A stretch of 64,000 bases of DNA, from assembly GCA_020831635.1 (NCBI GenBank), contig JAFIGC010000007.1:1-64000 (forward strand), read 5' to 3'. A model generated the notes under the pieces. That model was given only the letters and a program-made list of their open reading frames with translations, ran no database searches and had not been told where the DNA came from. The position numbers were made by a program, and so were the translations under genes. The DNA is from Verrucomicrobiota bacterium. Its GTDB lineage: Bacteria; Verrucomicrobiota; Kiritimatiellia; SS1-B-03-39; UBA6053. Below are positions 3,038 through 49,677 of the stretch, one piece after another; the first letter of the stretch is position 1, and the number at the start of each line of letters is the position of its first letter.

Positions 3038-3501
3038 TTCGCCACCTTCAACCGAATTTCCTCTGCCACGGGACCCATTCGGTTTTCCAATTCGCGGAGA
3101 CGCCGGTCCAGTTCCCGGCGAGCCTTTTCCTGTGTCTGGTGTTCGAGAACCAATTGATTCATCAGCATCTGGTTGACGGTGTTCTGTTCAAAGGCCATCC
3201 TGCTCAGAAAAGGGAACAGGAGTTTCCACAAGATCCGGCGGATCCAATAAAACAGCCGTCCGGATACGCCCCGCCCGAGGGGAATCGTCCAGAGCGTGGG
3301 GTCCACGCTGTGGCGGGAACGGATCAAAAGCAGATGCCGAACCCGATAGTCGAATTCATCCGGCGCGTCTTTCAGGCAAAGAATCGCCGCTTCTCCTTCG
3401 AGGAGGGAAAGCAGCCCCCCATCCGGATGGCGGGCGGCGGATTGTTCCAGTTCCTTTGCCAGATCTTCGCTTCGGTCGTTTCCCGCTATGATCAGCTTCA
3501 T
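3034..3501 (-). CDS. Conserved-looking hypothetical protein between glucan synthase and glycosyltransferase
   Basis: I do not recognise a family. The 155-residue protein starts MKLIIAGNDRSEDLAKELEQ and has an N-terminal alpha/beta-looking half containing an FDYRVRHLLLIRSR segment. A basic hydrophobic stretch near residues 85-105 (GRLFYWIRRILWKLLFPFLS) could lie on the membrane. The C-terminal helix, about residues 110-150, is strongly charged and probably forms a coiled coil (EKARRELDRRLRELENR). Both ends overlap neighbours by ATGA: its start with the synthase stop at 3498-3501, and its stop with the glycosyltransferase start. Tight coupling on both sides suggests an accessory role in the same glycan pathway. 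That role is inference. Confidence 0.75.
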   Translation of the reverse strand: MKLIIAGNDRSEDLAKELEQSAARHPDGGLLSLLEGEAAILCLKDAPDEFDYRVRHLLLIRSRHSVDPTLWTIPLGRGVSGRLFYWIRRILWKLLFPFLSRMAFEQNTVNQMLMNQLVLEHQTQEKARRELDRRLRELENRMGPVAEEIRLKVAK

Positions 3502-33607: not shown

Positions 33608-33705
33608 AGGTTTGTCTCGTGATTTGTGTGACACATTCCCAGGCATGGGTAAATTTTCATAAGATATGATTCACATGAAGCCGTTCATTCCACAAGGAAA
33701 AATAC

Positions 33706-33744
33706 TTGCATTAATTATGCAAAAAGTTACGAAATCAGCGCAAT
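33706..33744. promoter_or_regulatory. Putative operator of regulator/PEP-CTERM pair 2
   Basis: An inverted repeat TTGCAT-N5-ATGCAA (33706-33722) overlaps a direct repeat TGCAAA (33718-33723) / CGCAAT (33739-33744), 21 bp start to start. The second half-site covers the regulator start codon, which would suit autorepression. Confidence 0.55.
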
Positions 33745-34600
33745 GAAAGAAAAGATTGCCAGATTTGATGACTGGGACCGGGCGGAAATCCATCTGGTGT
33801 TTTGTTATCAAGGGGAAATCCCCGATATCGGCCTCGGTGAAACGGTGGCCCGTTTTAATTCGGCCTGGCTGGTTCGGTCCGGCTGGGCGGAAGTCACCTG
33901 CGGAAATCAGGACAAAGTCAAGGGAGAGGTTGGCGACTGGTTGTTTCTGCCGACGGGCCGGCGGCTTCAACGATTCAGCACGGATGCGGAGATTTTATCC
34001 ATTGCCTTCGTGGCCGGTTCTTTTTTGCAGGGCGTGATTTTTGAGAAAAACCTTCCCGCGGTTCTTCCATCCACACGGTTCCCTCCACTTGAAACCCGGG
34101 CGGTCCGGCTTTTGAAACAGACCACGGGGGGGCGGAAAAATGAACGGTTCAATTGTTGGGGCACCGAGATGGATATGAGGGAGTATCTCCGATTGAAACT
34201 GATTTTCTTCCGATGGCTCGAATCCTATGTCGCGGCCGCAAAGTTGATGAACTCAGAGGCGATGATCCTGCCCTCCGAGGATCCGCTGGTGGAGGAAGCG
34301 GTCCGCATGTTGCGTTCCCTCGCGCACCGGGAAGAATTGAAAATCCGGGACATGGCAGAGAGACTGGGAATCAGTGAGAGTCAGTTGAACCGGCGGTTCA
34401 CCCGTGCCACCGGCACCTCACTGCACCGATACTATAACAGGCTCCGTCTGGAAGCGGCCCTAAACCTGTTACGGTATGACAAGGGCAGTTTGAAAGAGAT
34501 CGCCTACGAGATGGGATTCAAGCATCCCTCCAACTTCACCAACTGGTTTAAAGCAAACGCGAAGGTCTCCCCGCGGACGTATCGGATGAAGTTTCAATGA
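33743..34600 (+). CDS. AraC-family regulator with cupin-like sensor, paired with PEP-CTERM protein 2
   Basis: This 285-residue protein is built like the regulator at 31383-32267: an N-terminal cupin-like half (VGDWLFLPTGRRLQRFSTDA) and a C-terminal double HTH (IRDMAERLGISESQLNRRFT and GSLKEIAYEMGFKHPSNFTN). The two N-terminal halves share the GDWLFLP / GEWLFLP motif, so they are paralogues. It is divergent from PEP-CTERM gene 2. The putative second operator half-site overlaps its own ATG. Confidence 0.92.
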   Translation: MKEKIARFDDWDRAEIHLVFCYQGEIPDIGLGETVARFNSAWLVRSGWAEVTCGNQDKVKGEVGDWLFLPTGRRLQRFSTDAEILSIAFVAGSFLQGVIFEKNLPAVLPSTRFPPLETRAVRLLKQTTGGRKNERFNCWGTEMDMREYLRLKLIFFRWLESYVAAAKLMNSEAMILPSEDPLVEEAVRMLRSLAHREELKIRDMAERLGISESQLNRRFTRATGTSLHRYYNRLRLEAALNLLRYDKGSLKEIAYEMGFKHPSNFTNWFKANAKVSPRTYRMKFQ

Positions 34601-34610
34601 TTTAAAAAAA

Positions 34611-34656
34611 ACAGCCGTTGCATCCATCACGACGAGCGTGGGAACACAACGGCTGT
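34611..34656 (-). terminator. Terminator hairpin of collagen-like gene 1
   Basis: A 10-bp stem, ACAGCCGTTG / CAACGGCTGT, with a 26-nt loop, followed on the minus strand by a run of eight Ts. The same element, nearly base for base, lies at 36126-36171. Confidence 0.82.
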
Positions 34657-34717
34657 CAGACCTTGAGGTGTCATTTCTCAGAGAGAGAGAGAGGAGACGA
34701 CACCGATAGGTCGGGGA

Positions 34718-36016
34718 TTACCTGTTGGTGCGAATCATGATGGCGAGTTCGCCTTCACGTTCAACCCGGGTATTCCGGAAAGCGCCCTTGCGGATGCTTG
34801 ACGCGGGAACACCGGCATCAATCAGGTTTTGGCTCACAGCCTGAATGCGCTGATCCACCATTTCCTGATTGTGGGTTTCGTTGCCATTGGGATTCACGGA
34901 AGCGTCAATGCCCACGGCCAAACTAGGATTGGCTTTCAGGTATTCGGCGACTTCAGCCAGTGTGGCATTTTCCCGGGTACTGAGGTCCTGGCGGTGGTGA
35001 TCGAATCGCACTTCGCGATACAAGACCCATCCGTCCACAACACCAGTCGCACCTTCAGCGCCGGTGGCGCCTACAGTGCCTCGAGCTCCGACTTCACCGG
35101 CATCGCCCACTGCGCCGGCAGGGCCGACGGAGGTGCTGCCCGTGTCACCCGCACGTCCGGAAACGCCGCGTTCACCGGTTTCACCGGCACGTCCCACGGC
35201 TCCGGCTGCGCCGGCTCCCGTGTCACCGCGTTCTCCGGCGGCACCTGTAACACCACGACCACCGGCAGTACCGGCGTAACCGGCGGGACCGGTCGGACCG
35301 ACCAAGGTCTCGCCTTGCACACCGGTTTCACCGGCGATACCGCGCGCTCCGGAAGCTCCGGCGGGACCGTCGGGACCACTCGGACCCACAAGCCCTTCAC
35401 CCCGTGCACCCGTTTCGCCAACGGTGCCCTTGTCACCGGCGGCACCAACGGGACCCGCGGGACCCGCGGCTCCGGCTACACTGGCGCCTTCGGCACCGGT
35501 TTCGCCGACTTCGCCTTTCTCACCGGCGGCTCCGGCAGCACCGGTTTCACCGGCGCGGCCTGCGACGACTCTGCCGTCCGCGCCTTTCGCGCCGATTTCG
35601 CCTTGAGCCCCGGTGGCGCCCGAAGGACCTTTTTTGCCTTCGGGACCGGCAATTCCAGCACCAGCGGCGCCAGTCGCGCCGACTTCACCTTGAACGCCAG
35701 ACGGCCCGGCGGATCCCTGTGCGCCGGCGGGGCCGACAATGCCGGTTCCTGTTTTGCCGGTTGCGCCGACTTCGCCTTGCGTGCCCGCAGGTCCTGCGGG
35801 ACCGGTGGCGCCGCGGGGGCCCATGAGACTGTCTTGGGTCCCTTGCTCCTGGCGAAGCTGGGGAGCTTCCGAGGGGGCGGTAACGTTGCCGTATCTGGGT
35901 TGGGTGCTGCTGCACCCCGCCGTAAAGACGGAGAGGACGCCGATACCGGCGACCGAGGCCATGAAACCAATGTTCCTTGCCTTTATTTCATTCTGTTTAC
36001 TTTTTTGCTTCTTCAT
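34718..36016 (-). CDS. Collagen-like repeat lipoprotein with OmpA-like C-terminal domain, copy 1
   Basis: This 432-residue protein has a lipoprotein signal with lipobox FTAGC (Cys about 35). About 250 residues of collagen-type G-x-y repeats follow (from LMGPRGATGPAGPAG, about 65-325). The C-terminal domain has OmpA/peptidoglycan-binding-like features: VRFDHHRQDLSTRENATLAE, YLKANPSLAVGIDASVNPN, and Q-x-V-S-Q-N-L-I-D-A-G-V-P. It should be anchored in the outer membrane, perhaps tied to the cell wall, with the collagen-like stalk as spacer or surface fibre. The frame is intact, and a regulon promoter precedes it. A second, damaged copy lies directly upstream. Confidence 0.88.
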   Translation of the reverse strand: MKKQKSKQNEIKARNIGFMASVAGIGVLSVFTAGCSSTQPRYGNVTAPSEAPQLRQEQGTQDSLMGPRGATGPAGPAGTQGEVGATGKTGTGIVGPAGAQGSAGPSGVQGEVGATGAAGAGIAGPEGKKGPSGATGAQGEIGAKGADGRVVAGRAGETGAAGAAGEKGEVGETGAEGASVAGAAGPAGPVGAAGDKGTVGETGARGEGLVGPSGPDGPAGASGARGIAGETGVQGETLVGPTGPAGYAGTAGGRGVTGAAGERGDTGAGAAGAVGRAGETGERGVSGRAGDTGSTSVGPAGAVGDAGEVGARGTVGATGAEGATGVVDGWVLYREVRFDHHRQDLSTRENATLAEVAEYLKANPSLAVGIDASVNPNGNETHNQEMVDQRIQAVSQNLIDAGVPASSIRKGAFRNTRVEREGELAIMIRTNR

Positions 36017-36073
36017 AATTTTCCTTTAGAGGAGTTTGGGTTTGTGAATGGATCTATTGAACCTTCACCTGAG

Positions 36074-36116
36074 AGTATAGAGGATGCGTGCCCTTTCATC
36101 CATGGGGTCTAACCCT
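36074..36116 (-). promoter_or_regulatory. Regulon promoter 12 (collagen-like gene 1)
   Basis: Operator AGGGTTAGACCCCAT at 36116-36102, 22 nt, then a consensus TATACT at 36079-36074. Confidence 0.83.
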
Positions 36117-36125
36117 GCTTAAAAA

Positions 36126-36171
36126 AACAGCCGTTGTATCCATCACGACGAGCGTGGGAACACAACGGCTG
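36126..36171 (-). terminator. Terminator hairpin of collagen-like gene 2
   Basis: The same stem, ACAGCCGTTG / CAACGGCTGT, as at 34611-34656, with A7 on the plus strand giving a T-run on the minus strand. A second hairpin, AGGTGTCGTTTCTT / AAGAAACGACACCT, lies at 36182-36219. Confidence 0.82.
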
Positions 36172-36231
36172 TCAGACCGGGAGGTGTCGTTTCTTGAAGA
36201 GAGAAAAGAAACGACACCTGTAGGTCGAGGA

Positions 36232-37699
36232 TTATCTGTTGGTACGAATCATGATGGCGAGTTCGCCATTCCGTTCGGCCCGGGTATTCCGGAAAGCGCC
36301 CGTGCGTATACTTGCAGCGGGCACGCCGGCATCCATCAGGTTTTGGCTCACCGCCTGAATGCGCTGATCCACCAGTTCCTGATTATGGGTTTCGTTTCCG
36401 TTGGGATTCACGGAAGCGTCAATGCCCACCGCCAAACTGGGGTTGGCTTTCAGGTATTCGGCGACTTCAGCCAATTTGGCGTTTTCGGAGTCCTGGAGGT
36501 CTTGGCGATGGTGATCGAACCGCACTTCGCGATACAAGACCCATCCGTCCACAACCCCGGCCACGCCTTCGGCACCGGTGGAGCCCACAGCGCCCCGCTC
36601 TCCGGCTTCACCGGCATCACCCACTGCACCGGCAGGACCGACGGTGGTGCCGCCCGTGTCGCCCGTGCGTCCGGCAACCCCGCGTTCACCGGTTTCACCG
36701 GCGCGACCCACGGCACCGGCGGCGCCGGCTCCCGTGACCCCGCGTTCTCCGGTTGTACCCGCAACACCACGGTCACCGGCAGTACCGGCGTAGCCCGCGG
36801 GTCCGGTCGGGCCTACCAGGGTTTCGCCTTGCACGCCGGTCTCGCCGGCAACGCCGCGCGCTCCGGCAGCCCCGGCAGGTCCGTCGGGACCACTCGGCCC
36901 CACAAGCCCCTCACCCCGGGCGCCCGTTTCTCCAATGGCGCCCTGGCCACCGGCGGCACCAACGGGGCCAGCGGGACCCGCGGCGCCGATGACACTTTCG
37001 CCCTCCGCACCGGTTTCGCCAACCGCGCCTTGTGTGCCGGCGGGACCGGCGGCGCCGGGTGGCCCCGCCCGGCCCACGACGCCACAACCCGCCGCCCCGG
37101 TCGCGCCCGGGTGGCCCCGGGGGCCGGTTGCCCCCCCCCGGCCCAGCGGGCCCCGGGGCCCGGAGCAAACTTACCCCCCCCCCCCCGGTTCCGCCAACCG
37201 CGCCTGGGGGCCCGGGGGGACGGGGGGCGCCGGTTGCACCGGCACGGCCTACGACGACTCTACCGTCCGCACCTTTCGCGCCGGTTTCGCCCTGGGTACC
37301 TGTAGCGCCCAACGGGCCTTGTTTTCCTTCGGGCCCGGCAATTCCCGCACCTGCGGCACCGGTCGCGCCGACCTCGCCTTGCACGCCCGTCGGTCCGGCG
37401 GACCCCTGAGCGCCGGCTGGGCCGACAATGCCGTCTCCCTGACGACCGGTGGCACCGACTTCACCTTGTGCGCCCGCGGGTCCCGCGGGACCGGTAGCCC
37501 CACGGGGGCCCATGAGACTGTCATACGTTTGTTGTTCCTGCGAGACGACGGGAGCAGCTGCGGCCACATGGCCGGTTCGGGCTTTGGTTCCACAGCATCC
37601 GGACGTCAAAAGCGTGAGCGCGCCAATGCCGGCGACGGAGGCCATGAAAGCAAAGCGTTTTGCGTTGGTTTCATTCTGTTGAGATGTGTAATTCTTCAT
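36232..37699 (-). pseudogene. Collagen-like OmpA lipoprotein, copy 2, frame broken in a G/C-homopolymer stretch
   Basis: The N-terminal part (start at 37699, inner Met of MIMKNYTSQQNETN) has lipobox LTSGC, and the collagen repeat runs as in copy 1 up to GAKGADGRVVVGRAGATGA. Around 37080-37220 the DNA turns into runs of G and C (for example 14 Cs near 37173-37186), and the frame loses collagen periodicity. The C-terminal frame (36232-37077) resumes GPPGAAGPAGTQGAVGETGA and ends in the same OmpA-like domain as copy 1. Promoter and terminator match copy 1. The break is probably a sequencing or assembly error in a repetitive region, though a true frameshift is possible. If corrected, the protein would be about 490 residues. 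Confidence 0.75.
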
Positions 37700-37755
37700 A
37701 ATCATTCCTTCGAGGAGTGTTGGTATTCCGATTCATGGATTGAATCTTTACACAT

Positions 37756-37798
37756 AGCATAGAGGATTGGCCAAATTTCAGCCATAGGGTCTAACCCT
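37756..37798 (-). promoter_or_regulatory. Regulon promoter 13 (collagen-like gene 2)
   Basis: Operator AGGGTTAGACCCTAT at 37798-37784, 22 nt, then TATGCT at 37761-37756. Very close to promoter 12, as expected for a tandem duplication. Confidence 0.8.
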
Positions 37799-37802
37799 GC
37801 CG

Positions 37803-37885
37803 CCCAATCCCAATCCCAATCCTAATCCCAATCCCAATCCTAATCCTAATCGTAATCGTAATCCCAATCCCAATCCCAATCCACG
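37803..37885. repeat. 6-bp tandem repeat (CCAATC/CTAATC)
   Basis: About 13 tandem hexamers of CCAATC, CTAATC and CGTAAT type. They are the same kind as at 30270-30300 and 32480-32565 but without the 65-bp core. Between 37900 and 38058 only low-complexity text is seen. Confidence 0.8.
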
Positions 37886-38058
37886 CCCCGGTTTTATCCG
37901 ATGGACAAACCCATTCGCTCGAGCCGGTTCGAGAATCGTTTTATATAAGAATTTTGAACAGGAGGACGCAGAGGGAAATGGCGGTGGAGTTGCCTTTGCT
38001 CTCTTTGCTTGCTTCTGTTTCAATCCATTGTGTTTTTTGAACAGAAGGTCGCACACGC

Positions 38059-39843
38059 CTACCGCCGGCGGCGGAACAACGCCAGAGATCCGAGGGCAAC
38101 AATCATCAGAATCAGGGTGCCCGGTTCAGGGATCACGGTGAGGTCCACATACCCCGAAGTGGTGTCCACGGTGTTCAACGACAGCGTATACCCGTTCACA
38201 GTGTCGTTGGCCAGCGTCAGCTCTCCGATGCGGGTACCCGTCCACTCCACGAGGCGATAGGTGCCCAAGGTCAGACCGAGATCCTCAATGAAAACCTGGC
38301 CGTCGGAAAAGTCGGCATCGCCATCAATCGTCAGCAGGGTGCGATTGTCAAACCCGCTGCCCTGATCCGAATAGGTGCCAAGGCCGAATTCCAAGGTTCC
38401 CGGCGTGTTCAGGTTTCCGTTGACCGTGAAGGACTTCTCTTCCTGGAGCGCCAACGTCCCCTGCACGGTGTGCAGACTGTCGGAGAGGTTGGTGGGACCG
38501 GTTTGAATCACACCGTTGCCGGCCATGACGACGCGGGCATTGCCGCCGATCGTCTGCAGCCAACCGTCAGCACCAGCCCGCATGTCGACGATGCCGTTGC
38601 CGGTGGCGATCCAGGTGCCGCCGGTGAGAGTGTTGTCGTCCCGCTCGACCAAGGGCGTGTTGTCGATAAAAAATCTACCCGAGCGCACTTCCAGGGTGCC
38701 GGTGTTGCTAAAGGTGCCGGAGGCATTTTCCACCCGGGCGGTGCCCGTGCCTTCGCTTTTGATGAAATGTCCTTCATTGATGAAAGCACTGCCGCTGGTG
38801 CGCATGGTCAGGAAATTGTTCGTCCCGGTATTTCCGGTGGCCGCGTATTCCATGGTGCCTGTGTTGCGGACGGTGGCTGCACTTCTGAAATCAAAGCGAT
38901 TGGTGGTGCCATGGATATAGGTTCCGGCATTGTTGAATTCCCCACTACCATTGACGAATGTATCTCCGCTTACGGTGCGGTGCATCAAGCCATCGTTGGT
39001 CACCAAGTTTCCCCCGGTTTCTATATGGCCGGTGACCTGCAAACCTTCCCCAGTTACGTTGAAAGTCACATCGTTGGTGGCCGTGGCTCCCGCCCAGCGG
39101 AGCTGTCCGCCGCCGCTCACATGACCGCTGAATTCGTCCTGTATGCGATCTCCCAGGGCCACCCAGGTTCCGGCGGCCAGGTTGAAAGTCCCTCCGGTGC
39201 TCTTGGCGATCACATCGACACGGAAATTCCCATTGATGGTTTCCACCGTCCCTCCGTCGTTCAACCACAAACCGTTGTTTTCCCAGCGGGTGACGCCATT
39301 CTGGGCGCGGAAGGTTCCCGATGCGGTGTTTTCAAACACCGCGTTGTTCCGAACTGTAAAGTGCCGGTTGCTTGCTGTACCCGCATGATCCCCGATAAAG
39401 GTGCCACTGTTGCGAATGGTGAGATTGTCGTAGTCAATGCGGCCGCCGTCCGATTCATGACGATAGGTCCCCGCGTTGAGAAAAACGCCGCTGCCCCCCA
39501 TACCGCGGTCTCCTCCGCTGAAGGTAAAGGTTCCCCCGGCATTGTGGGTCAACGTCTGATCGGTGCTGATGTTGATGTCCCCGGTCGTCCAGAAACTTGC
39601 CGTCGGAGCGCCTCCGGGTCCATCACTGCCGCCGAATTCGTGGTCGGCGGTTACGCCGGTCGCATGCTGGATCGTCACCGCGTCGTTTTCTCCGGGCACC
39701 CCCACCGGATCCCATCGGGTCGAATCTCCCCAGCCGCCCGAACCATCCGTAACATAAGTCGTCTGGGCATAAACCGAACTGACCATCAGTAAAATTACCG
39801 ACGAAACCAAAAGCAGGGGGCGAATATTGAATGTCTGTTTCAT
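38059..39843 (-). CDS. PEP-CTERM sorted autotransporter-like beta-strand protein 3
   Basis: This protein of about 594 residues has a signal peptide (about 1-28, ending near VYAQT). A long beta-solenoid-like repeat region follows, with repeating N-T-G-T / N-x-G-x-F motifs such as SGTFIGDHAGTASNRHFTVR and ASGTFSNTGTLEVRSGRFFI. The sorting signal is VIPEPGTLILMIVALGSLAL with basic tail FRRRR. It should be exported and held in the extracellular matrix. The start at 39843 is preferred over 39870. The gene is divergent from a XylR-type regulator. Confidence 0.9.
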   Translation of the reverse strand: MKQTFNIRPLLLVSSVILLMVSSVYAQTTYVTDGSGGWGDSTRWDPVGVPGENDAVTIQHATGVTADHEFGGSDGPGGAPTASFWTTGDINISTDQTLTHNAGGTFTFSGGDRGMGGSGVFLNAGTYRHESDGGRIDYDNLTIRNSGTFIGDHAGTASNRHFTVRNNAVFENTASGTFRAQNGVTRWENNGLWLNDGGTVETINGNFRVDVIAKSTGGTFNLAAGTWVALGDRIQDEFSGHVSGGGQLRWAGATATNDVTFNVTGEGLQVTGHIETGGNLVTNDGLMHRTVSGDTFVNGSGEFNNAGTYIHGTTNRFDFRSAATVRNTGTMEYAATGNTGTNNFLTMRTSGSAFINEGHFIKSEGTGTARVENASGTFSNTGTLEVRSGRFFIDNTPLVERDDNTLTGGTWIATGNGIVDMRAGADGWLQTIGGNARVVMAGNGVIQTGPTNLSDSLHTVQGTLALQEEKSFTVNGNLNTPGTLEFGLGTYSDQGSGFDNRTLLTIDGDADFSDGQVFIEDLGLTLGTYRLVEWTGTRIGELTLANDTVNGYTLSLNTVDTTSGYVDLTVIPEPGTLILMIVALGSLALFRRRR

Positions 39844-39940
39844 GGGGATGTCCTTCTTTTTACAATGCAATGGTTTGAATCAACGATCACAACTGATTTA
39901 CAGTATGACGGAAGAGACAAAAACCCACAACCCAATTTAG

Positions 39941-39967
39941 CGCAAAGGTTTTGTAATTTATCGCAAA
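39941..39967. promoter_or_regulatory. Putative operator of XylR-type pair 3
   Basis: Direct repeat CGCAAA (39941-39946) and CGCAAA (39962-39967), 15 nt between them and 21 bp start to start. The same geometry is present at pairs 4 and 5. Confidence 0.62.
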
Positions 39968-39987
39968 TGATTGTAAGAACTGTTCTC

Positions 39988-41157
39988 ATGCCCGCTTTAA
40001 AACGCATTGCCCTGGTGATGGGCCATTTCCCCTACAATCACAATATCCGCGTGGGGTTGCGAAAATATACCCTTCCCGACAAACCTTGGATCCTGGAGTG
40101 GTTTGGTCCGGGTCTGGATGCCGTTGAACGCCTGAAACACGAGGGGGCCGACGGGGTGATCACCCATATTCAGAGCGCGGAAATGGGCCATGCGCTCCGG
40201 GAATTGGACCTGCCGGTGGTGAATGTGGGCAGCCAGTACCCCGGGGTCTTTCCGGATCAGCTTGTGGACCATTCCGGCGTGGGCCGCATGGCGGCGGCGT
40301 ATTTCGCGGATCGCGGCTTCCGCCGGGTCGCGTTCATCGGTCACCCGAACATGCGGTACTCCAACCTTCGCATGGAGGCCTTTATGGAGGTGGCCTCCCA
40401 AAGGGGCCTGGACATGACTCTGGGGGAAATCCCCGCCCCGTTGTCCTCGGGGGAAGGTTGGGAAACCCCGGGGAAAGTGATGGATCTTCTGGAGGATTGG
40501 TTGGACAGCATCCCTTCTCCCGTGGCCGTTTTTTGCTGCAACGACAATCTGGCCCGCACCTTGATGGACGTCTGTCGCGTCGCGGGACGCCGGATCCCCC
40601 GGGAGGTGGCCATTCTGGGGGTGGACAACGACGATCCCCATGGGCTTCTTTCCTCCGTGGCCCTCTCCAGCGTGGACATCGGGGCGGAGCGCATCGGTTT
40701 CGCGGCCGGAAAAGTCTTGGAGACCCTCATGAAGACCCGCGGAAAAGGAAAAAGCGCCCCCGCGGAATCCCTGTCGCAGTTCCATCCGCCCCTTGGGGTC
40801 GTGACCCGCGCCTCCACCGAAGTCGCGCATGTGCGAGACCCCCGGCTGGCGGCGGCCCTGGAATATCTGCGCCAAAACGCCGGAAAACCGGTGAATATCG
40901 GGGATTTGCCGAAAATCGCCGGCGTATCCCGCAGAGGACTGGAGGGCCTCTTCAAAGAAGAAACCGGATACACGCCCCTGCAATATCTTCACCGCCTCCG
41001 GGTGGACACCGCGAAAAAAGTGCTACTTGAAACGGATTTCCCCATGTCCTGGGTGGCCGAGCGCTGCGGATTCAAAGACGCGGAACAGCTCAGCCGCCTC
41101 TTCCACAAACACGCCGGAATTCCCCCCAGCGAATTCCGCCGGGCCTCCAGAGTTTAG
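39988..41157 (+). CDS. XylR-type (LacI-like sensor plus AraC HTH) regulator, paired with PEP-CTERM protein 3
   Basis: This protein of about 389 residues has a type-I periplasmic-binding-like sensor domain (about 1-270, with RVAFIGHPNMRYSNLRMEAF and VAILGVDNDDPHGLLSSVAL). A C-terminal AraC HTH follows (about 285-385, IAGVSRRGLEGLFKEETGYT and VAERCGFKDAEQLSRLFHKH). This is the XylR/LacI-AraC hybrid layout and lacks an N-terminal LacI HTH. Such proteins sense sugars. I chose the start at 39988 (MPALKRIALVMG), because the operator repeat covers the ATG at 39967; that longer start cannot be excluded. It is divergent from PEP-CTERM gene 3. Confidence 0.92.
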   Translation: MPALKRIALVMGHFPYNHNIRVGLRKYTLPDKPWILEWFGPGLDAVERLKHEGADGVITHIQSAEMGHALRELDLPVVNVGSQYPGVFPDQLVDHSGVGRMAAAYFADRGFRRVAFIGHPNMRYSNLRMEAFMEVASQRGLDMTLGEIPAPLSSGEGWETPGKVMDLLEDWLDSIPSPVAVFCCNDNLARTLMDVCRVAGRRIPREVAILGVDNDDPHGLLSSVALSSVDIGAERIGFAAGKVLETLMKTRGKGKSAPAESLSQFHPPLGVVTRASTEVAHVRDPRLAAALEYLRQNAGKPVNIGDLPKIAGVSRRGLEGLFKEETGYTPLQYLHRLRVDTAKKVLLETDFPMSWVAERCGFKDAEQLSRLFHKHAGIPPSEFRRASRV

Positions 41158-41570
41158 GGCCTGCCGATCTACTGCAACGATATGGCTTGTAACCACTTAA
41201 GGACGCTAAAGGAACGCTTAACTTGATTTTTTTAAGCGTGCATTCAGCGTATTTTAGCGGTTTCAACATCTCTGCAATGAATCGATCTACAGGCCCTTTA
41301 GGATTCTTTAGAAGGAAGATCGTTGCCTTTGCTCCCTTTGCGTGCTTCTGTGTTTTTGAACAGAAGGCCGCGAAGAAAGCGAAGCACTGCAGTGGCTTTG
41401 CTCTGTTCTCTCCTGTTCCCAACCCCTCTTCGGGCGATTTTTCTGATTCCTTTTACAGACTCGTCGATGCTAATCTGCACGAATATTAACCAAAAATGTT
41501 TTTTTATTAGCGTAAGATAAGCGAAGATAAGCGGTTCCCCCATGCATTTTTGAATCAATCGACAGGCCCT
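41158..41570. other. Intergenic region without a supported gene
   Basis: Convergent space between two XylR-type regulators. It holds simple repeats and a purine-rich stretch (GAACAGAAGGCCGCGAAG-like, near 41360) related to short stretches near 37955, 38040 and 46070. The similar repeated texts look like remnants of one dispersed element. No hairpin terminator with a T-run was found. Confidence 0.4.
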
Positions 41571-42725
41571 TTAGGGTCTGCGGGTCTTGCGGCGATATTC
41601 TGAGGGGGTGAGTCGGGTGTGGCGTTTGAACATGACGCACATGTGGGATGCGGAGGGCCAGCCGCATTCGGCGGCGATGTCGGGCGTGTACATATCGGTG
41701 AGTTCCAACAACTCCCGGGCCCGGGCCACCCGCACCCGGGTGATGTGCTCGCCCAAGGTGAAGCCGAAGGCGGTTTTGTAGCGGGTTTCCAAACTGCGGC
41801 GGGACATGTGGGAAAGCCGCACGATCTCCTCAAAACGGATTTCGTCACAGGCGTGCTCGCGGATGAAGGCGTACACCCGGCTCAGATTGGGGTCTTGGGT
41901 GGCCAGGGTGTCGGTGGAGGCGCGCGCCACCACCCGCACTGGCTGGATCCGGTTGTCCGCCGGCGGAACTTTTTCGCCTCGCAACAGGGCATGCAACAGC
42001 TCGGCGCCGCTGTGGCCGATGCGCTCGGTGCCGGGATCGACACTGGAGAGGGCGGGATGGCAGATGCGACACAGCAGGGCCTCGTTGTCGACCCCCAACA
42101 CCGCCAGATCCTCGGGCACCCGGATGTCGGCGGCCAGCGCGGCGTGAACGAATTCAAGGCCGATTCCGTCTCTGGCTGCGAACAGAGCCGCCGGACGAGG
42201 ATCGTCTTGGAACATCTGCTTCAAAATTTTGGCGGGTGGCGTGTCCGTGGGCAGCACTTCGATTTCGCATCCGACCCGTTTTGCGGCGGCTTGATACCCC
42301 TGCAGCCTCGCCAGGGAAAAAGGCCATTGATGGAACCCGGCGAAAAGGAAGCGGTGAAATCCTCGTTTGTGGAGGTGGTCGAATCCCAGGACGCCCACGG
42401 CGGGATTGTCGGCCCGCACACGATGCAGGGCGTCGGCGCCGGGCTGGCGGAGGTCCGCCGCCACAAACACCACCGGCTTTCCCCAGGAAACCAACGCATC
42501 GATGGTGGCGGGATTTCGGCTTTCGCACAGAATCGCATCCGGTGAAAATTCGGACAGCAGCCGATCCAGACCGGGCTCATCACTATTGGGTTCATGCCGC
42601 AACTGCCAACTCGGCTGTTGGTCCGCATAGCCCAAAAACCCCTCAAGGATCCAGCGTCCATATCCCACCGGGTGCATGCCCAGCAGGCCGATTCGGGGAG
42701 CTGAATTTCGTCGGGAAAGGCTCAT
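41571..42725 (-). CDS. XylR-type (LacI-like sensor plus AraC HTH) regulator, paired with PEP-CTERM protein 4
   Basis: This 384-residue regulator has a sensor domain starting RIGLLGMHPVGYGRWILEGF, with FRFLFAG-like and DLAVLGVDNEALLCRICHPA motifs (about 10-265). A C-terminal AraC HTH lies at about 280-380 (IVRLSHMSRRSLETRYKTAF, DIAAECGWPSASHMCVMFKR). A sugar ligand is likely. It is divergent from PEP-CTERM gene 4 and its peptidase partner. The direct repeat operator at 42769-42795 lies 44 nt before its start. Confidence 0.92.
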   Translation of the reverse strand: MSLSRRNSAPRIGLLGMHPVGYGRWILEGFLGYADQQPSWQLRHEPNSDEPGLDRLLSEFSPDAILCESRNPATIDALVSWGKPVVFVAADLRQPGADALHRVRADNPAVGVLGFDHLHKRGFHRFLFAGFHQWPFSLARLQGYQAAAKRVGCEIEVLPTDTPPAKILKQMFQDDPRPAALFAARDGIGLEFVHAALAADIRVPEDLAVLGVDNEALLCRICHPALSSVDPGTERIGHSGAELLHALLRGEKVPPADNRIQPVRVVARASTDTLATQDPNLSRVYAFIREHACDEIRFEEIVRLSHMSRRSLETRYKTAFGFTLGEHITRVRVARARELLELTDMYTPDIAAECGWPSASHMCVMFKRHTRLTPSEYRRKTRRP

Positions 42726-42768
42726 GAGCCTGAATCAACCAGAAGATTCCCTCTCAGTCAACCTGCAT

Positions 42769-42795
42769 TTTGCGTTTTAACAAAATATGTTTGCG
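42769..42795. promoter_or_regulatory. Putative operator of XylR-type pair 4
   Basis: TTTGCG at 42769-42774 and 42790-42795, that is CGCAAA on the minus strand, 15 nt between them and 21 bp start to start. Confidence 0.62.
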
Positions 42796-42900
42796 CTTAA
42801 ACGGATGCATGCCGCCGTCGCTTTTGATACAATGCCAAAATCGAACGAACTCTTTCATGCCTGTTGCATCGTTCATGAATCCCAAAAACGGAGAAAAAAA

Positions 42901-43704
42901 ATGAAAAAACGACTCTTCACCACCACCCTGCTTCTAGGCTTCTGCCTGTCCGCGTCTGCGGATATCATTGTCCAGTACACCTTTGACAACAACCTGAATG
43001 CCACCACCCTTGGCCCCAACATTCAATCCGCCAGCACCTTCGGGGGAAATACTGATGTAGCCCCCACTCATTCCGGATTAGCGGGAATCAACGTGGACGG
43101 CTCCACCTACACGAACTCAGCACCCTTGAACGACGTCGAGAACACGGGCGGGGACGCTGGCCGTGTTTTTGCGCGCACGTTTTCTTCTACTGCCGGCGGC
43201 GATTTTCAATTCTACTATGACTTTTCGCTGACGGTGGAAGACGGGTATTTTCTGAATCTGGATAATGTAACCTTTGATCTGGGATTCCGTGAATTGTCAG
43301 CCAGCGCCATGAAAGTCGAATACAGCACCAGCAGTGATTTCAGCACGGGGGTTGTACAGATCGGAGCCGGTGCGGGTTACAACGCTGAACCTCAGGATTT
43401 TCTGGGCTATGGTACGGATGGAACGTTGGGTGTGACCCAAGCCTCAGGATTCACCAATATCAGTTGGAACCGATACACGAACACGGATAATCTTGCAGGA
43501 AACGAGTCCCTGACCGGGGATGTGTTTTTCAGAATTTGGCTTCGGGGGGGGGAATCCACTAGTGACGGGCGACTAGAAAATGTCTTTTTGGATAACATCA
43601 CCGTGAATGGCGTCACGGTCATCCCCGAACCGGGCACGCTCACCCTAATGATTCTGGGAATGGCCGGGGCGGGCCTCGCGTCTTTCCGGAAGAAACGGGT
43701 CTAA
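42901..43704 (+). CDS. PEP-CTERM sorted extracellular protein 4
   Basis: This protein of about 267 residues has a signal peptide (KKRLFTTTLLLGFCLSASAD). A lectin-like beta-rich domain follows (IIVQYTFDNNLNATTLGPNI ... GDFQFYYDFSLTVEDGYFLN), and the sorting signal is VIPEPGTLTLMILGMAGAGL with basic tail FRKKRV. The start at 42901 follows a GGAG ribosome-binding site by 7 nt; the longer frame from 42787 runs through the operator. It is the first gene of a two-gene operon with the secreted carboxypeptidase-like gene, four bases behind, and is divergent from the regulator at 41571. Confidence 0.92.
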   Translation: MKKRLFTTTLLLGFCLSASADIIVQYTFDNNLNATTLGPNIQSASTFGGNTDVAPTHSGLAGINVDGSTYTNSAPLNDVENTGGDAGRVFARTFSSTAGGDFQFYYDFSLTVEDGYFLNLDNVTFDLGFRELSASAMKVEYSTSSDFSTGVVQIGAGAGYNAEPQDFLGYGTDGTLGVTQASGFTNISWNRYTNTDNLAGNESLTGDVFFRIWLRGGESTSDGRLENVFLDNITVNGVTVIPEPGTLTLMILGMAGAGLASFRKKRV

Positions 43705-43708
43705 TGCA

Positions 43709-46054
43709 ATGAACAAAATCTTTTTATGGATCGGGGCGCTTGCGCCCCTTTCTTTTTTATTTGGAGGAGAACTGATGGTGGATGGAGATTTCGACAACGG
43801 GCGCATTGAAGTGGTGTCCATCGATCAGGAAAACCGGATCATCAGCACCCGGGTGCCGGACGACAACCACACCCAGGACAGCCGCATGCGCTTCTGGCAC
43901 CTGCGGATCACCGGGATGACGCCGGGCGAGCGGGTCACCCTCCGTCACGCCGCCTCGGTCAGCATGCACTACGTGTACAGCTATGACGGCGAGATCTGGC
44001 ACCGGTTTCCCACCCAAGGCGTCAACGAGATCTCCTTTCGCTTCGTACAGCCGACCGTCTATATCGCCCCCAACATTCCCTACCCCTACGGGCGCAGTCT
44101 GGACCTGGCGGCGGAGCTGGCCCCGAATCCACATGTCACCGTGAGCGATTTGGCCACCAGCGAGCAGGGACGGGCGGTGAAGCTGTTTCGCATCACCGAC
44201 GCCTCGGTCCCCGATGACGGCAAACGGGTGGTCTGGATTCAGGGACGGCAGCACGCCTTCGAAAGCCCCTCCAGCTTCATCCCCGAGGGCTTGGCCCGCT
44301 GGATGGCCTCCGACGACCCCGCCGCCGCCGAATTCCGTCAACTGGCCATCGCCTACGTGGTCCCCGTCATGGACGTGGACAACGTGTTTCACGGCATGAG
44401 TGGCAAGGACATGCCCAACGATTTCAACCGGGTTTGGAACCAGGATCCTCCCCACTGGAACGCGGTGGCCGCCGCCAAAACCCTGCTCAATCAACTGCAC
44501 GCCGACGACAACCTGCTCGCCTTCATCGACAGCCACAACCCCTACTACACCCAGGCCCCGCACTGGCATGTGGCTGGAACCGCGGCCAACTGGAACGCGT
44601 TTACCGCCGCATACCTGCAGGGCGTGCAGGAAGCCGGGGCCGCCAACCACGACGCCGCCGTGGCCCAAACCAATGTCGGCACCACCCCCTCGAATCTCGG
44701 GGTCGCCAAAAATTACGCCATCGTTCACTGGAACAATGACGACGACTTCTTCGCGCACACCATGGAAAGCGCCCACCACCGGGACAATCAGGGCCGCTTC
44801 ATGCTCAAAGAGGGATACCTGCAATGGGGCGAGGCCTTGGGACGCGCCTTTTACAAGCTGCTGGGAGGGGAGGAACTCCCGGAAAACATCCCGCCGCGCG
44901 CGGCGTTGGCCCGGGTCGGTACGAACGGCTTTACCGCCGCCGGATCAACCGATCCCGACGGTGAGATCGTCGCTTATCACTGGGATTTTGGCGACGGAAC
45001 CACGGTCACGACTCCCGAACCGGAGGTGGCCCATGATTATGACGCGGACGGCGATTACCACGCCAGTCTGCGGGTGGAAGACAACGACGGCGCCCTCAGT
45101 CCCCGGGTATCCGTGCATGTGCCCGTGGGCGAAATCCAGTCGCCTTTCGTCTGGAGTGCCGAGGCCCAGCAAGGCGGGAGTTCCTGGGCGCATTCAGGCT
45201 GGGAGCCCGGCACCTTCCGCTTGTTGCTGAAGGGCGCGCATGTCACCGGTCATGCGTCGAAAATTTCCCTGACCTTCCGGGGCCGCAGCTCGGGCAGCTA
45301 CACCTTGCGGGGCGTCAGCATCGCCAAAAGGGACGGGGAAAGCCTCAATATCATCAAGGACACTTGGACGGAACTGACCTTCGGCGGCACTTGGGCTGAC
45401 GGGGTGACCCTGCCCGCCGGCGACTGGGCCGCGAGCGACACCGTCGAATTTGACCTTCGCCCGGGCGAGGACCTGTTCCTCACCTTCCGGGCCGACCATT
45501 CCACCCTCTATCTGAATCCCAATCATCCCGAGACCAGCGCTTGGTTTGTGCCCAATGCCGACCATTCCACCCTAAAGCAGTGGGAGGGCCTGAGCATTCC
45601 CGAAACCCGGGGGTTTCTGTATGCGGTGTCCGAAATTCAGGTCAAGGAGCGGCCCACCGACGACGCGGACGGCAACGGCCTGCCCGACGCCTGGGAGCGG
45701 CATTGGTTTGAGGAAAGCGGACAGGACCCCGACGCACCCGCCGGGGATTCCGGCATGACCGTGAAAGACATGTTCATTCTTGGAGGCGATCCCATCGGCG
45801 GAGCGCCGCTGAAACTGACGCTGTCACCTCCGGAAAGCCTCCGATTCCCCACAAAATCCGCGGAAGCGCCCTGGTATGGTGGCCGCGAACGGACCTACCA
45901 AATCGAACGGGCGGAATCCTTGCAAAATACAGAAGAAGACGCTTGGATGGCGTTCGGCGACCCGATCACCGGCACCGACGGGGAAGTGGTGTTGCCCCCG
46001 CCCGAAGATCCCGGATTCTATCGACTGCGGGTGAATTTGCGAGAGATGCATTAG
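43709..46054 (+). CDS. Secreted M14-type zinc carboxypeptidase-like protein with PKD and C-terminal modules
   Basis: This 781-residue exported protein has a signal peptide (IFLWIGALAPLSFLFGGEL). An N-terminal beta domain is at about 25-140. An M14 peptidase domain follows: zinc ligands HAFE (His182, Glu185) and FIDSH (His276), and a catalytic Glu candidate in HTMES (Glu353). A PKD-like domain lies at about 390-475 (FDFGDGTTV-like AYHWDFGDGTTVTTPEPEVA). The C-terminal part has a DDADGNGLPDAWERHWF segment and a module ending YRLRVNLREMH. All zinc-site positions are present. It likely trims peptides outside the cell. It lacks a PEP-CTERM tail and follows PEP-CTERM gene 4 by 4 nt. Its C-terminal pattern resembles that of the giant protein at 54876. 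Confidence 0.87.
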   Translation: MNKIFLWIGALAPLSFLFGGELMVDGDFDNGRIEVVSIDQENRIISTRVPDDNHTQDSRMRFWHLRITGMTPGERVTLRHAASVSMHYVYSYDGEIWHRFPTQGVNEISFRFVQPTVYIAPNIPYPYGRSLDLAAELAPNPHVTVSDLATSEQGRAVKLFRITDASVPDDGKRVVWIQGRQHAFESPSSFIPEGLARWMASDDPAAAEFRQLAIAYVVPVMDVDNVFHGMSGKDMPNDFNRVWNQDPPHWNAVAAAKTLLNQLHADDNLLAFIDSHNPYYTQAPHWHVAGTAANWNAFTAAYLQGVQEAGAANHDAAVAQTNVGTTPSNLGVAKNYAIVHWNNDDDFFAHTMESAHHRDNQGRFMLKEGYLQWGEALGRAFYKLLGGEELPENIPPRAALARVGTNGFTAAGSTDPDGEIVAYHWDFGDGTTVTTPEPEVAHDYDADGDYHASLRVEDNDGALSPRVSVHVPVGEIQSPFVWSAEAQQGGSSWAHSGWEPGTFRLLLKGAHVTGHASKISLTFRGRSSGSYTLRGVSIAKRDGESLNIIKDTWTELTFGGTWADGVTLPAGDWAASDTVEFDLRPGEDLFLTFRADHSTLYLNPNHPETSAWFVPNADHSTLKQWEGLSIPETRGFLYAVSEIQVKERPTDDADGNGLPDAWERHWFEESGQDPDAPAGDSGMTVKDMFILGGDPIGGAPLKLTLSPPESLRFPTKSAEAPWYGGRERTYQIERAESLQNTEEDAWMAFGDPITGTDGEVVLPPPEDPGFYRLRVNLREMH

Positions 46055-46282
46055 CCAATGTTCTGCGCCCTCTGCGTCCTCCTGTTCAAAAATACGGCGG
46101 ATTGGAACGGAGGTCTGGGAATTCATTCCCTCCGATCCTCAACTCAACGGGACGAGCCAGACCCAAAAACCATCCGTGCCCCTCCGTGCCCATCTGTGCC
46201 CATCCGTGGTTGCTTTTTCAAGAGGTCAGGTTCTGTAAGAAAACATTACTCACTTTCCAAGGTTCTGCCCACAACCCCGGCA
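46055..46282. other. Intergenic region between convergent genes
   Basis: No gene is supported. The stretch at 46059-46100 (TCTGCGCCCTCTGCGTCCTC-like, then CTGTTCAAAAATA) is similar to the inverse of bases near 37950-37985. A run of CCGTGCCC/CATCTGTGCCC repeats lies at 46170-46205. Confidence 0.4.
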
Positions 46283-48313
46283 TCAGTGGCCGCTTCCGTA
46301 TTCCCCGCACAGGCCTTCGAGAATCGCGGCGGTGGCCCAGGGATGGTAGGCAAACCAAAGGGTGGAACGCGCTCCACCGACCAGGCGGATGTCCAAGACA
46401 TAGCGTTCCGACTGGCAAAAATACTCCGGGGACCAGCCTTTTTTTCCGAAAAAGAATTCGCCGTCTTTCCGGTTGTAGGTTTGCAGCCCCCAATCCCGCA
46501 TGTCGTGCAGGCGGGTAAGCAGATACGGGTCGTCGGTTTGCCGCCATAAATAGGCGATCTCATCCAGAACACTGTTGGCCATGCAGTGAACCACGGCGTT
46601 GCAGACCGAGGTGATGCATCCGCCACAGGTGGACCACCCGTGCGCGGCATTCAGAGGCTCGCCCCGGACGGCCACGTTGTGGCAGTAAATGAAACTGAAC
46701 AGGTAATCCAAACCCGAACGCAAACGGGAGAGGCGCGCGGCGGAAGGGTCCAACTCATGCAGAATTCGGGCGAGCCGCAGATACGCGAGGATGCCTTCCG
46801 CGTCGGGGGCGTCGGCCACATCCAGCGGGGTTTGCACACACGCCATGCGCCTCACCCCGTTTTCAAAGTAGAATGCTTCCGCCCGTTTGCAGGCGGGAAG
46901 CCAACGGGCGCTGCCGCTCACTTTTGCGTGCGCGGCCATGGCAGCCGCCACCCAGCAACCGGCAAATCCGCTGTACCCCAATCCGCGGCCATCCTCGCCG
47001 CGCCAAAAGCGGGGAAAGCCTCCATCGGACGCTTGGGTGGAACCCACCCGCTCGAGCACGCCCTCCACCCATTCAAGCCAGTCGGTGTGCAAAACGCCTT
47101 CCACCTGTTTTTCCCAGGCATAGGCCTTGAGCACATAAAAGAGGGCTTGGCCAACCAGATACGCGGGATGTTCGACCCCGAGTCCTTCTTCCTTCAGCCA
47201 TGCCGACCACCAGCCCTCATTGGTCCAGCGCCCGTCGATCTTGCAGGCGAAAGGGATTCCGGTTTGGGGATTGATTGCGTTCGCGAGAATATCCTCAAAA
47301 ACGGCCAAGGCCGTGTCGCGAAATTCCGGGCGACCCAGTCGATGGGCCGCCTGCAACAAAGGGAACGCGATCACCGTCCCGTTGGTCCAACTGATCCCGC
47401 CCTCATAAAAGCGGCGGTAGCGTTCTCCTTCCGGATTCCCGGGAATATATTCAAGCGCACCCCCTTCCGCTTTGTCCGCTTCTCCCGTTGCGGGCTCCAT
47501 GGCCACCAGGGCAAAAGTTTTGCGCTCCGGGTCATACGCATCCGCAAGCATGGCCTCGGCGATGTCCGCCACGGCATCGGCGCATTCCGCCCCGCGACGG
47601 GGAGGTTCGTGAAAGCGGTTGTACACCGCCTCCAGAATTTTGCCCAGGGCAAGGGCATCCGCGGAAGGAAAGGCGAAGGCCCAAAAAAGAATCTCCACCT
47701 CCTCGCCGGGCGCCAAGGTGAGGCATTCGACGGGAGCCTCCGCGCCGAGCTCGTAGTCAAAGGGGCTTCGGTAGATCCCGGGCTCTTGCACGTGTCCCAA
47801 GGTGAAGCCCACGGCGGCGCAGGGCGCAACCCCGCAGAAAAACCCGTTGAAGCGGGTCCGGCCCGGAAGCATGGGGGCCACGGTAAGACCGAGAAAAAAT
47901 CCGTCCACATGCATCGCCGCAAGCGGATGGGTCAGCTGGTCCGCACGGGCATGCCACAACGGCGCGTAAGGCGGAGCAACCGGACCGGGACGCAGTCGGG
48001 GAAAGTGTTTTCGCATTGTTTGGGGAACGGGCTGATCGCCCCGATTGCTTCCCATCAAAAACCCCGGCAGAAAAAACCGCGCCTCCGGAACCTGATTTTC
48101 CCGAGAGTGTTTTAGGGCGACACGCGGCACGCCTGTCCAAGGACGGCTCCCCGGATTGTGGACCTGCAGCCGGAAACAGGCGGGATCCCCGGGATGACCT
48201 TTGCCCGTTCCGGACACAAGACGAAAGGAAACCTCTCCGGGTTCCCCCCGGGCACAGCTCACCTGCAGGGGATTGCCATACAGCGACGTTTCGTATAGGG
48301 GCGTGTCTGTCAT
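46283..48313 (-). CDS. Predicted six-hairpin (alpha/alpha barrel) glycosidase-like protein
   Basis: This protein of about 676 residues has no signal peptide and no family I can name. The N-terminal third (about 1-230) is a beta-rich domain. The rest has repeated helical pairs with W-x-N-E-G-W-W-x-A and G-G-F-P-R-F-W-R-G type turns, as in six-hairpin glycoside hydrolases and epimerases (FLRNT-free examples RRFYEGGISWTNGTVIAF, NGWSTCGGC-like HGWSTCGGCITSVCNAVVHC). Acid residues fit a glycosidase but I cannot assign the catalytic pair. The start at 48313 is chosen because the longer frame (48733) covers regulator sequence. It lies 88 nt behind the XylR-type regulator and is probably in its operon. 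Confidence 0.65.
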   Translation of the reverse strand: MTDTPLYETSLYGNPLQVSCARGEPGEVSFRLVSGTGKGHPGDPACFRLQVHNPGSRPWTGVPRVALKHSRENQVPEARFFLPGFLMGSNRGDQPVPQTMRKHFPRLRPGPVAPPYAPLWHARADQLTHPLAAMHVDGFFLGLTVAPMLPGRTRFNGFFCGVAPCAAVGFTLGHVQEPGIYRSPFDYELGAEAPVECLTLAPGEEVEILFWAFAFPSADALALGKILEAVYNRFHEPPRRGAECADAVADIAEAMLADAYDPERKTFALVAMEPATGEADKAEGGALEYIPGNPEGERYRRFYEGGISWTNGTVIAFPLLQAAHRLGRPEFRDTALAVFEDILANAINPQTGIPFACKIDGRWTNEGWWSAWLKEEGLGVEHPAYLVGQALFYVLKAYAWEKQVEGVLHTDWLEWVEGVLERVGSTQASDGGFPRFWRGEDGRGLGYSGFAGCWVAAAMAAHAKVSGSARWLPACKRAEAFYFENGVRRMACVQTPLDVADAPDAEGILAYLRLARILHELDPSAARLSRLRSGLDYLFSFIYCHNVAVRGEPLNAAHGWSTCGGCITSVCNAVVHCMANSVLDEIAYLWRQTDDPYLLTRLHDMRDWGLQTYNRKDGEFFFGKKGWSPEYFCQSERYVLDIRLVGGARSTLWFAYHPWATAAILEGLCGEYGSGH

Positions 48314-48401
48314 GCCTGCAACAATGGAGCGGAAAATTCCATCTGACAAGCATGGAGCTTTCCATGGCCGGAGAAAAGCATAAAACAGGAAATTCCTTCC
48401 A

Positions 48402-49550
48402 TTATCTCCGGGTTTTTCTCCGATATTCGGTGGGGGTTTGTTTGAGGATGTCCTTGAACACCCGGGCCATGCGCTGCGGGGATTGAAACCCGGATTCCGC
48501 CGAGATTTCCTCCATGCCCATGTTGGTGTTGACGAGCAACTCGCAGACCTTTTCCACCCGGGTGCGTTTGATTTCCCACAAAGGTGTATGGCCCAAATAC
48601 TGACGGAAACTTCTTTCCAGCAAACACCGGGAAAGCGGGACCTGCCGGACCACATCCTCCACGGAAATCCGCCCGGCATGGTTCTCGCGGATCCAGCGCA
48701 CCGCTTGGGCCACGCAGGGGTCGGGCACGGCAATCACATCCGTGGACTGGCGTTGCACCACTCCGTGCGGAAAAATCTCTTCCCGATAAGTGCCGGGAAT
48801 CGATTCCCCTTGCATCATTCGTTCCAACAGTCGCGCGGCGGCATGGCCAATCCCCCGCCCGTTGGGGTCGATGCTGGAAAGAGGCGGATGACCCAGAAAG
48901 CACACGCGCTCACGGTTGTTGCAGCCCAGCACCGCCACATCGCCCGGAACCTCCCATCCACTTTCCCGGGCCACATTGCTCACCAGCTGGGCGAGTTCGT
49001 CATCCTCGGTGAAAATTGCGATCGGCTTGGGCAAGCTTCGCATCCAGGCCCGTGTCCTTTCAATCACTTTTTCGTTCTCGGAACGCGTGTCCATAAAAGG
49101 ACGCGCGTCAAACAAACGATCTTTGCGGAAGTCCGGTTCCGCAAAGAGCCGGTCGCGGAACCCGGAGAAGCGTTCCCTTGAAAACGAAAAATTCCGGCCC
49201 AAAAACCCGAACCAATACACGCCCAGTGACAACAAGTGCTCCGCGGCCATGGTTCCCAGTGCCCGGTTGTCCAAGGTCACCGTGGGCAGGCTTCCCTGGA
49301 GTCGGGTCGAGACGTTGACCACCGGAACGCCGAGGGCCTGCAATTCTTGCACGATATCAGGCTCATAGGCATATACCAGAAAGCCGTCCGCACCCGAGCC
49401 CCGGAGCTGTTCCCCCCAGTTTGTCGGGAAATCGTGGCTCCGAACGATCCACGGAGCCCCCTCCGACAAAAAGTGGCCAATCCCCTTGAATAATTCAGGG
49501 GCCATCAAGGCGTTTCCAAACACCACGGAAACTTTTCGGAGCGCGGTCAT
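48402..49550 (-). CDS. XylR-type (LacI-like sensor plus AraC HTH) regulator, paired with PEP-CTERM protein 5
   Basis: This protein of about 382 residues has a type-I periplasmic-binding-like sensor (about 5-270, FGFLGRNFSFSRERFSGFRD, DVAVLGCNNRERVCFLGHPP) and a C-terminal AraC HTH (about 285-380, VVRQVPLSRCLLERSFRQYL, GMEEISAESGFQSPQRMARV). The start at 49550 (MTALRKVSVVFG) is preferred over 49556. It is divergent from PEP-CTERM gene 5 and followed by the glycosidase-like gene, which suggests a sugar-linked module. Confidence 0.92.
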   Translation of the reverse strand: MTALRKVSVVFGNALMAPELFKGIGHFLSEGAPWIVRSHDFPTNWGEQLRGSGADGFLVYAYEPDIVQELQALGVPVVNVSTRLQGSLPTVTLDNRALGTMAAEHLLSLGVYWFGFLGRNFSFSRERFSGFRDRLFAEPDFRKDRLFDARPFMDTRSENEKVIERTRAWMRSLPKPIAIFTEDDELAQLVSNVARESGWEVPGDVAVLGCNNRERVCFLGHPPLSSIDPNGRGIGHAAARLLERMMQGESIPGTYREEIFPHGVVQRQSTDVIAVPDPCVAQAVRWIRENHAGRISVEDVVRQVPLSRCLLERSFRQYLGHTPLWEIKRTRVEKVCELLVNTNMGMEEISAESGFQSPQRMARVFKDILKQTPTEYRRKTRR

Positions 49551-49576
49551 GATCAAGGTTTACCCTGAACGATGTA

Positions 49577-49603
49577 TGCAAAGCAACACAAACTTTATGC
49601 AAA
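49577..49603. promoter_or_regulatory. Putative operator of XylR-type pair 5
   Basis: TGCAAA at 49577-49582 and 49598-49603, 15 nt between them, 21 bp start to start, on the plus strand. Confidence 0.62.
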
Positions 49604-49677
49604 TGCCTATTTTCGGACCGCAAGGTTTCGAGTAAAGTCTTTTCATAAACCCAAAACCCGAACATGAAGGAAAAGAC

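Follow-up and report, generated by a model that had tools for sequence, protein, structure and literature searches.

Three divergent gene pairs in the 64-kb stretch of DNA analysed here (the window) consist of a XylR-type regulator, R1, R2 or R3, and a gene for a PEP-CTERM protein, and the spacer of each pair contains an exact direct repeat of the form YGCAAA-N15-YGCAAA. These regulators are likely to be locus-dedicated activators of PEP-CTERM surface-protein genes that work with AraC-type class II geometry and probably repress their own genes. Each repeat would be the operator for the regulator encoded alongside it, and the three pairs would be examples of a genome-wide scheme that combines a neighbouring regulator with a locus-specific word around a YGC core. 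For one PEP-CTERM lineage outside Proteobacteria, this provides a candidate regulator class together with its site and promoter register.

The three repeats are real, as the preliminary description had stated for all three XylR-type pairs. The exact pattern matches three times in the window, each time between a XylR-type regulator and its divergent PEP-CTERM gene, and nowhere else in these 64 kb, for which 0.04 matches are expected; none of 100 shuffled versions reached three. When the spacers were shuffled individually, the probability of a repeat was 0.00015, 0.00013 and 0.00005. A chance origin would be favoured by the AT content of the spacers (58–62%) and by the occurrence of the bare repeat pattern within genes as well, genome-wide. 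However, the excess is specific to the spacing and holds under composition controls, and the spacing spectrum described below contradicts chance, leaving accidental repeats in AT-rich spacers virtually out of the question. A genome scan for the repeat, suggested in the same description, returned 29 matches, as opposed to 12 for the reversed control pattern. The similar site ascribed to the second cupin-type pair is present at 33718/33739 with one mismatch but is weak: a window is expected to hold about two such sites, the two copies do not match in their flanks, and the half-site scan misses it.

Features of the window that are relevant to the proposed regulation. For operators, the strand is that of the YGCAAA repeat
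Feature	Position	Strand	Remarks
Operator 1 (candidate)	39941..39967	+	CGCAAA-N15-CGCAAA; on the PEP-CTERM strand TTTGCGATAAAT / TTTGCGCTAAAT, 21 bp apart
Putative -10 of PEP-CTERM gene 1	39902..39907	-	CATACT; 36 bp from proximal-core G; consensus match only
R1	39988..41157	+	XylR-type regulator (LacI-like sensor, AraC-type HTH), 389 aa
PEP-CTERM protein gene 1	38059..39843	-	594 aa
Operator 2 (candidate)	42769..42795	-	CGCAAA-N15-CGCAAA; on the PEP-CTERM strand TTTGCGTTTTAA / TTTGCGCTTAAA
Putative -10 of PEP-CTERM gene 2	42828..42833	+	TACAAT; 35 bp from proximal-core G; consensus match only
R2	41571..42725	-	XylR-type regulator, 384 aa
PEP-CTERM protein gene 2	42901..43704	+	267 aa from chosen start
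M14 carboxypeptidase-like/PKD protein gene	43709-46054	+	Begins 4 bp past PEP-CTERM gene 2
Operator 3 (candidate)	49577..49603	+	TATGCAAA / TATGCAAA, 21 bp apart on the PEP-CTERM strand
Putative -10 of PEP-CTERM gene 3	49633..49638	+	TAAAGT; 34 bp from proximal-core G; consensus match only
R3	48402..49550	-	XylR-type regulator, 382 aa
PEP-CTERM protein gene 3	49678..51156	+	PATR repeat, 492 aa
One-mismatch repeat	33718..33744		Between AraC-type regulator (33743-34600, +) and PEP-CTERM gene (32780-33608, -)

The preliminary description also held that the direction of the repeat is not constant. The YGCAAA strands do differ, but the change of direction may in part be a reverse-complement coincidence, because the words read towards the PEP-CTERM gene (TTTGCG in pairs 1 and 2, TATGCAAA in pair 3) all have TGC in the same place. 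TTTGCG and CGCAAA place the GC core alike, since GC is self-complementary. R1 and R2 may bind in the reverse sense or may read TGC forward, and the sequences are compatible with either. The M14 carboxypeptidase-like gene behind PEP-CTERM gene 2 is probably in one operon with it and hence under the same control.

R1, R2 and R3 all match PF13377 (Peripla_BP_3) and PF12833 (HTH_18) above the cut-off; in each, a single chain carries a periplasmic-binding-protein-like sensor ahead of an AraC-type double HTH. Residues 44–385 of R1, the only one of the three compared in this way, align with Escherichia coli XylR (4fe4) over nearly the full length (E 2.9e-39). The target genes match PF07589 (PEP-CTERM) above the cut-off. 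The whole genome (6.0 Mb in 308 contigs) encodes 62 Peripla_BP_3, 68 HTH_18 and 107 PEP-CTERM matches, as well as two matches to PF09721, the exosortases. The PEP-CTERM upstream set used below comprised 100 regions, compared with the 107 family matches, and start codons were picked by a simple signal-peptide score. More than half of the non-redundant XylR-type regulators of this genome (25 of 46) are divergent from a PEP-CTERM gene, for which the binomial probability is below 1e-22 if PEP-CTERM genes make up 2–4% of all genes, a rough estimate. The same arrangement was found for 27 of 81 sampled regulators of relatives, every one within the same order, and for none of 14 taken from elsewhere in the class, of which four had a neighbour cut or missing and could not be judged; the relatives' regulators were sampled by similarity to R1, and this distribution is indicative only.

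The spacing of the half-sites was analysed by counting how many sequences hold an exact direct repeat of 6 bases at each spacing d. Upstream of the XylR-type regulators of this genome, 11–12 of 46 sequences had such a repeat at d=21 and 0–4 at every other spacing, and upstream of the relatives' regulators the count at d=21 was 12 of 81 against a mean of about 2; in both sets, 21 bp is the sole peak. Upstream of the genome's own PEP-CTERM genes, 22 of 100 regions had a repeat at 21 bp; the other spacings averaged about 3.5 and never exceeded 10. A spacing of 22 bp is used by a minority of operators. The suggestion that an AraC-type domain dimer binds, on one face of the DNA, half-sites separated by 21 bp (two helical turns) gains support from this peak and from E. 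coli araBAD, where the same computation places AraC sites I1 and I2 21 bp apart. Among unselected PEP-CTERM genes of relatives, genome G007 gave a modest signal (6 of 29 at 21 bp, mean 1.1 at other spacings) and genome G005 no clear 21-bp signal. In genome G035, a member of the same class in which no R1 homologue was found, exact 6-mers had no 21-bp peak but an unrelated peak at 22 bp, and this genome is not a clean control. Several PEP-CTERM upstream regions of G035 (L346, L352 and L332) have AGGGTTTGGGG or its complement directly repeated at 22 bp, which may be the site of another regulator or a dispersed repeat. No repeat was detectable in 12 of 27 PEP-CTERM genes divergent from XylR-type regulators, and about 20 PEP-CTERM genes have a repeat with no regulator found nearby, a count made at a looser threshold that admits chance matches and includes stretches stopping near the gene.

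Half-site words vary by locus and include TTTGCG, TATGCAAA, TTCGCAATA, ATCACATTTT, TTTGACAA, TGAAACATTTTC, ACGCGAT and others. YGC is present in many of them as the common core, of which YGCAAA is merely one version. A universal YGCAAA operator was rejected on account of this variation between loci, and the shared operator of the preliminary description is not supported. If R1, R2, R3 and other regulators recognised the same YGCAAA repeat, their loci would form a single cross-regulated regulon, for which one can point to the occurrence of one 6-mer, identically spaced, in three adjacent spacers, and to its presence in front of further PEP-CTERM genes for which no neighbouring regulator was found, such as L011/L223 (contig C159) and L224 (contig C258). 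We consider this unlikely, because the extended half-sites are unlike one another (TTTGCG.TAAAT, TTTGCGYTTWAA, TATGCAAA), R1–R3 share only 27–30% identity, unrelated words are found at many other loci, and one YGCAAA is changed in a relative of R2. Similarity of words and similarity of HTH domains showed no significant correlation (p=0.10) in an underpowered set of 13 cases. In contig C118, neighbouring PEP-CTERM genes carry the common word ATCACATTTT, as expected if a single local regulator reads it.

Two further sets of loci have extended words in common. In contig C81, consecutive PEP-CTERM genes (L003 and L004) each lie behind an identical 27-bp operator, CGCAAACGGAAAGAAAAAAGACGCAAA, and the pair sits downstream of the closest R1 paralog (37% identity); as in C118, this would fit a single local regulator reading both. 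The long half-site TTGTCGCAAAA recurs at PEP-CTERM genes of contigs C243 (L221) and C258 (L224), and no regulator was found alongside them. In contig C153, the gene of a XylR-type regulator (L097) is itself preceded by GCGACAAA repeats spaced by 22 bp (reverse complement TTTGTCGC); the C153 regulator may control the C243 and C258 genes in trans.

Phylogenetic footprinting of the spacers, another check suggested earlier, upheld the half-sites in some pairs but not the exact YGCAAA of pair 2. Both half-sites are kept in the aligned spacers of L063/L119, whose regulators are 74% identical, and of L071/L151 (68%), in the latter with the spacing shifted by one base. Likewise, L080 and L164 both keep ACGCGAT ahead of their PEP-CTERM genes. 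Operator 2 of the window is partly conserved in genome G008. In the relative of R2 with 59% identity, TAAGC..AAACAT and AAACGCA are kept, but the first YGCAAA is changed and the second altered; thus, the 6-mer is not the strictly conserved unit. No close relative suitable for footprinting was found for R1 (best match 37%, a paralog) or for R3. A collection scan with alignment A2 yielded one useful relative, a Verrucomicrobia MAG; alignment A1 was too diverse for such a scan.

The operators are also in register with predicted promoters. On the PEP-CTERM strand, 17 of 25 operators of this genome have a -10-like hexamer 34–36 bp after the G of the proximal YGC, compared with a mean of 4.7 and a maximum of 11 of 25 in 3000 trials in which the downstream DNA was shuffled. 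The 34–36 bp interval was set after the own-genome profile had been seen, and both E. coli AraC and the relatives agree with it. In the relatives, a separate set, the register was found in 6 of 10 operators (p=0.003), and in these six (L119, L153, L159, L161, L164 and L193) the best-placed hexamer lies at 34–35 bp. Computed likewise, the distance from the core G of AraC I2 to the -10 of E. coli araBAD is 35 bp. The position of the repeats, described at first as varying relative to the starts, does vary with respect to the start codons but is nearly constant with respect to the PEP-CTERM -10 elements (36, 35 and 34 bp for operators 1, 2 and 3).

These distances suggest how the sites might work. 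A regulator dimer, with its LacI-like sensor and AraC-type DNA-binding domain, would bind the two direct half-sites on the same face of the helix. The proximal half-site would abut or overlap the -35 on the PEP-CTERM side, with the YGC core placed ahead of the -10 as in AraC I2, and the bound, probably ligand-loaded regulator would activate the PEP-CTERM gene through class II contact with RNA polymerase. Activation is predicted because the register matches that of an AraC-type activator adjoining the -35, and the LacI-like sensor suggests a sugar ligand. The same site probably represses the regulator gene, since it lies about 20–45 bp ahead of that gene's start codon. The preliminary description had allowed for one gene being activated and the other repressed; the geometry points to the PEP-CTERM gene as the activated and the regulator gene as the repressed one.

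A LacI-like sensor, and a site that adjoins the promoter and could block RNA polymerase, would also suit repressors of the PEP-CTERM genes that are released upon ligand binding in the manner of LacI. We regard this as improbable, because the site is upstream of the -10 and the predicted start, not over them, in the register of the AraC activator, and the DNA-binding domain is of the AraC type, not the LacI type. Much less probable still is control of these genes by the known sigma-54/PrsR system, with repeats unrelated to it. The genome does encode PrsR-like response regulators, and one match shares a contig with an exosortase, but even the best score, 442.5 bits, falls short of the PrsR cut-off (502.6 bits). 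Moreover, the DNA motif linked to PrsR was confined to Proteobacteria in the paper that first established it (PMC1569441), and the sites precede -10-like, not -24/-12, elements in a scan for -10-like hexamers.

The architecture itself is already known from AraC and from Bacteroides HTCS (PMC3878776), but a pairing of XylR-type regulators with PEP-CTERM genes was not described anywhere in the literature searched, which excluded subscription papers and preprints. The AraC/araBAD system of E. coli has the same half-site spacing, a corresponding register (21 and 35 bp) and a divergent regulator gene. It differs in that the AraC sensor has a cupin arm instead of a LacI-like domain, and in its words; the target here is an exported PEP-CTERM gene, and no evidence of a DNA loop was seen. 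E. coli XylR resembles R1 in domain layout and in its full-length similarity, and the xylA-xylF spacer also has 21-bp direct repeats (TTATTTCACA/ATAATTCACA); however, XylR governs the catabolism of xylose and has words other than YGCAAA, and its gene is not divergent from the target. HTCS of Bacteroides with AraC-type domains have direct-repeat motifs averaging 21 bp and many paralogs, each beside its own targets (PMC3878776), but they are membrane-spanning two-component sensors of polysaccharide-use loci, whereas the regulators here are one-component, soluble and linked to PEP-CTERM genes. The PrsK/PrsR sigma-54 PEP-CTERM box of Proteobacteria is likewise a cis-regulatory element ahead of many PEP-CTERM genes (PMC1569441), and RpoN dependence has been shown for one PEP-CTERM gene (PMC9850573). 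In that system one regulator serves many genes through sigma-54 promoters, in contrast to the several regulators, locus-specific words and -10-like elements seen here. The YSIRK-targeted surface antigen regulators (TIGR04094) similarly pair an AraC-type regulator with the gene of a sorted surface protein, but this family was built from a different protein group, and R1–R3 score 31–52 bits against its cut-off of 200, in the DNA-binding part only.

The 2006 paper that defined PEP-CTERM sorting noted that more regulators and DNA motifs awaited discovery, since the sigma-54 box is missing from many PEP-CTERM genes both within and beyond Proteobacteria (PMC1569441). The present data suggest that many PEP-CTERM surface proteins owe their activation to a sensor encoded next to them, which would help explain control outside Proteobacteria, and they provide a rule for predicting targets of XylR-type regulators (YGC, 21 bp, 34–36 bp to the -10). 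Tentatively, and with slightly more doubt than confidence, we propose that in one Verrucomicrobiota order the PEP-CTERM surface proteome is largely run by dozens of dedicated one-component sensors. There would be roughly one sensor for every protein or small cluster, with a separate operator word built around the common YGC core, so that a given surface protein would be displayed when its particular small molecule is sensed.

Several other genes of the window deserve mention. Two similar neighbours on the minus strand (34718-36016 and 36232-37705) encode proteins with collagen-like repeats and an OmpA-like domain at the C-terminus. The second gene has an interruption or shift around a G/C-rich run at about 37100-37200, where the assembly may be faulty. 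Right downstream of R3 and on the same (minus) strand is a large gene (46283-48313) with no Pfam match, whose product could be an enzyme partner of R3. The minus strand also encodes a 2555-aa protein (54876-62543) with reprolysin-like, Calx-beta, laminin-G-like, Ig-like and fibronectin type III domains, and a 2829-aa protein (3498-11987) with GH94 and glucoamylase-like domains arranged as in cyclic beta-glucan synthases.
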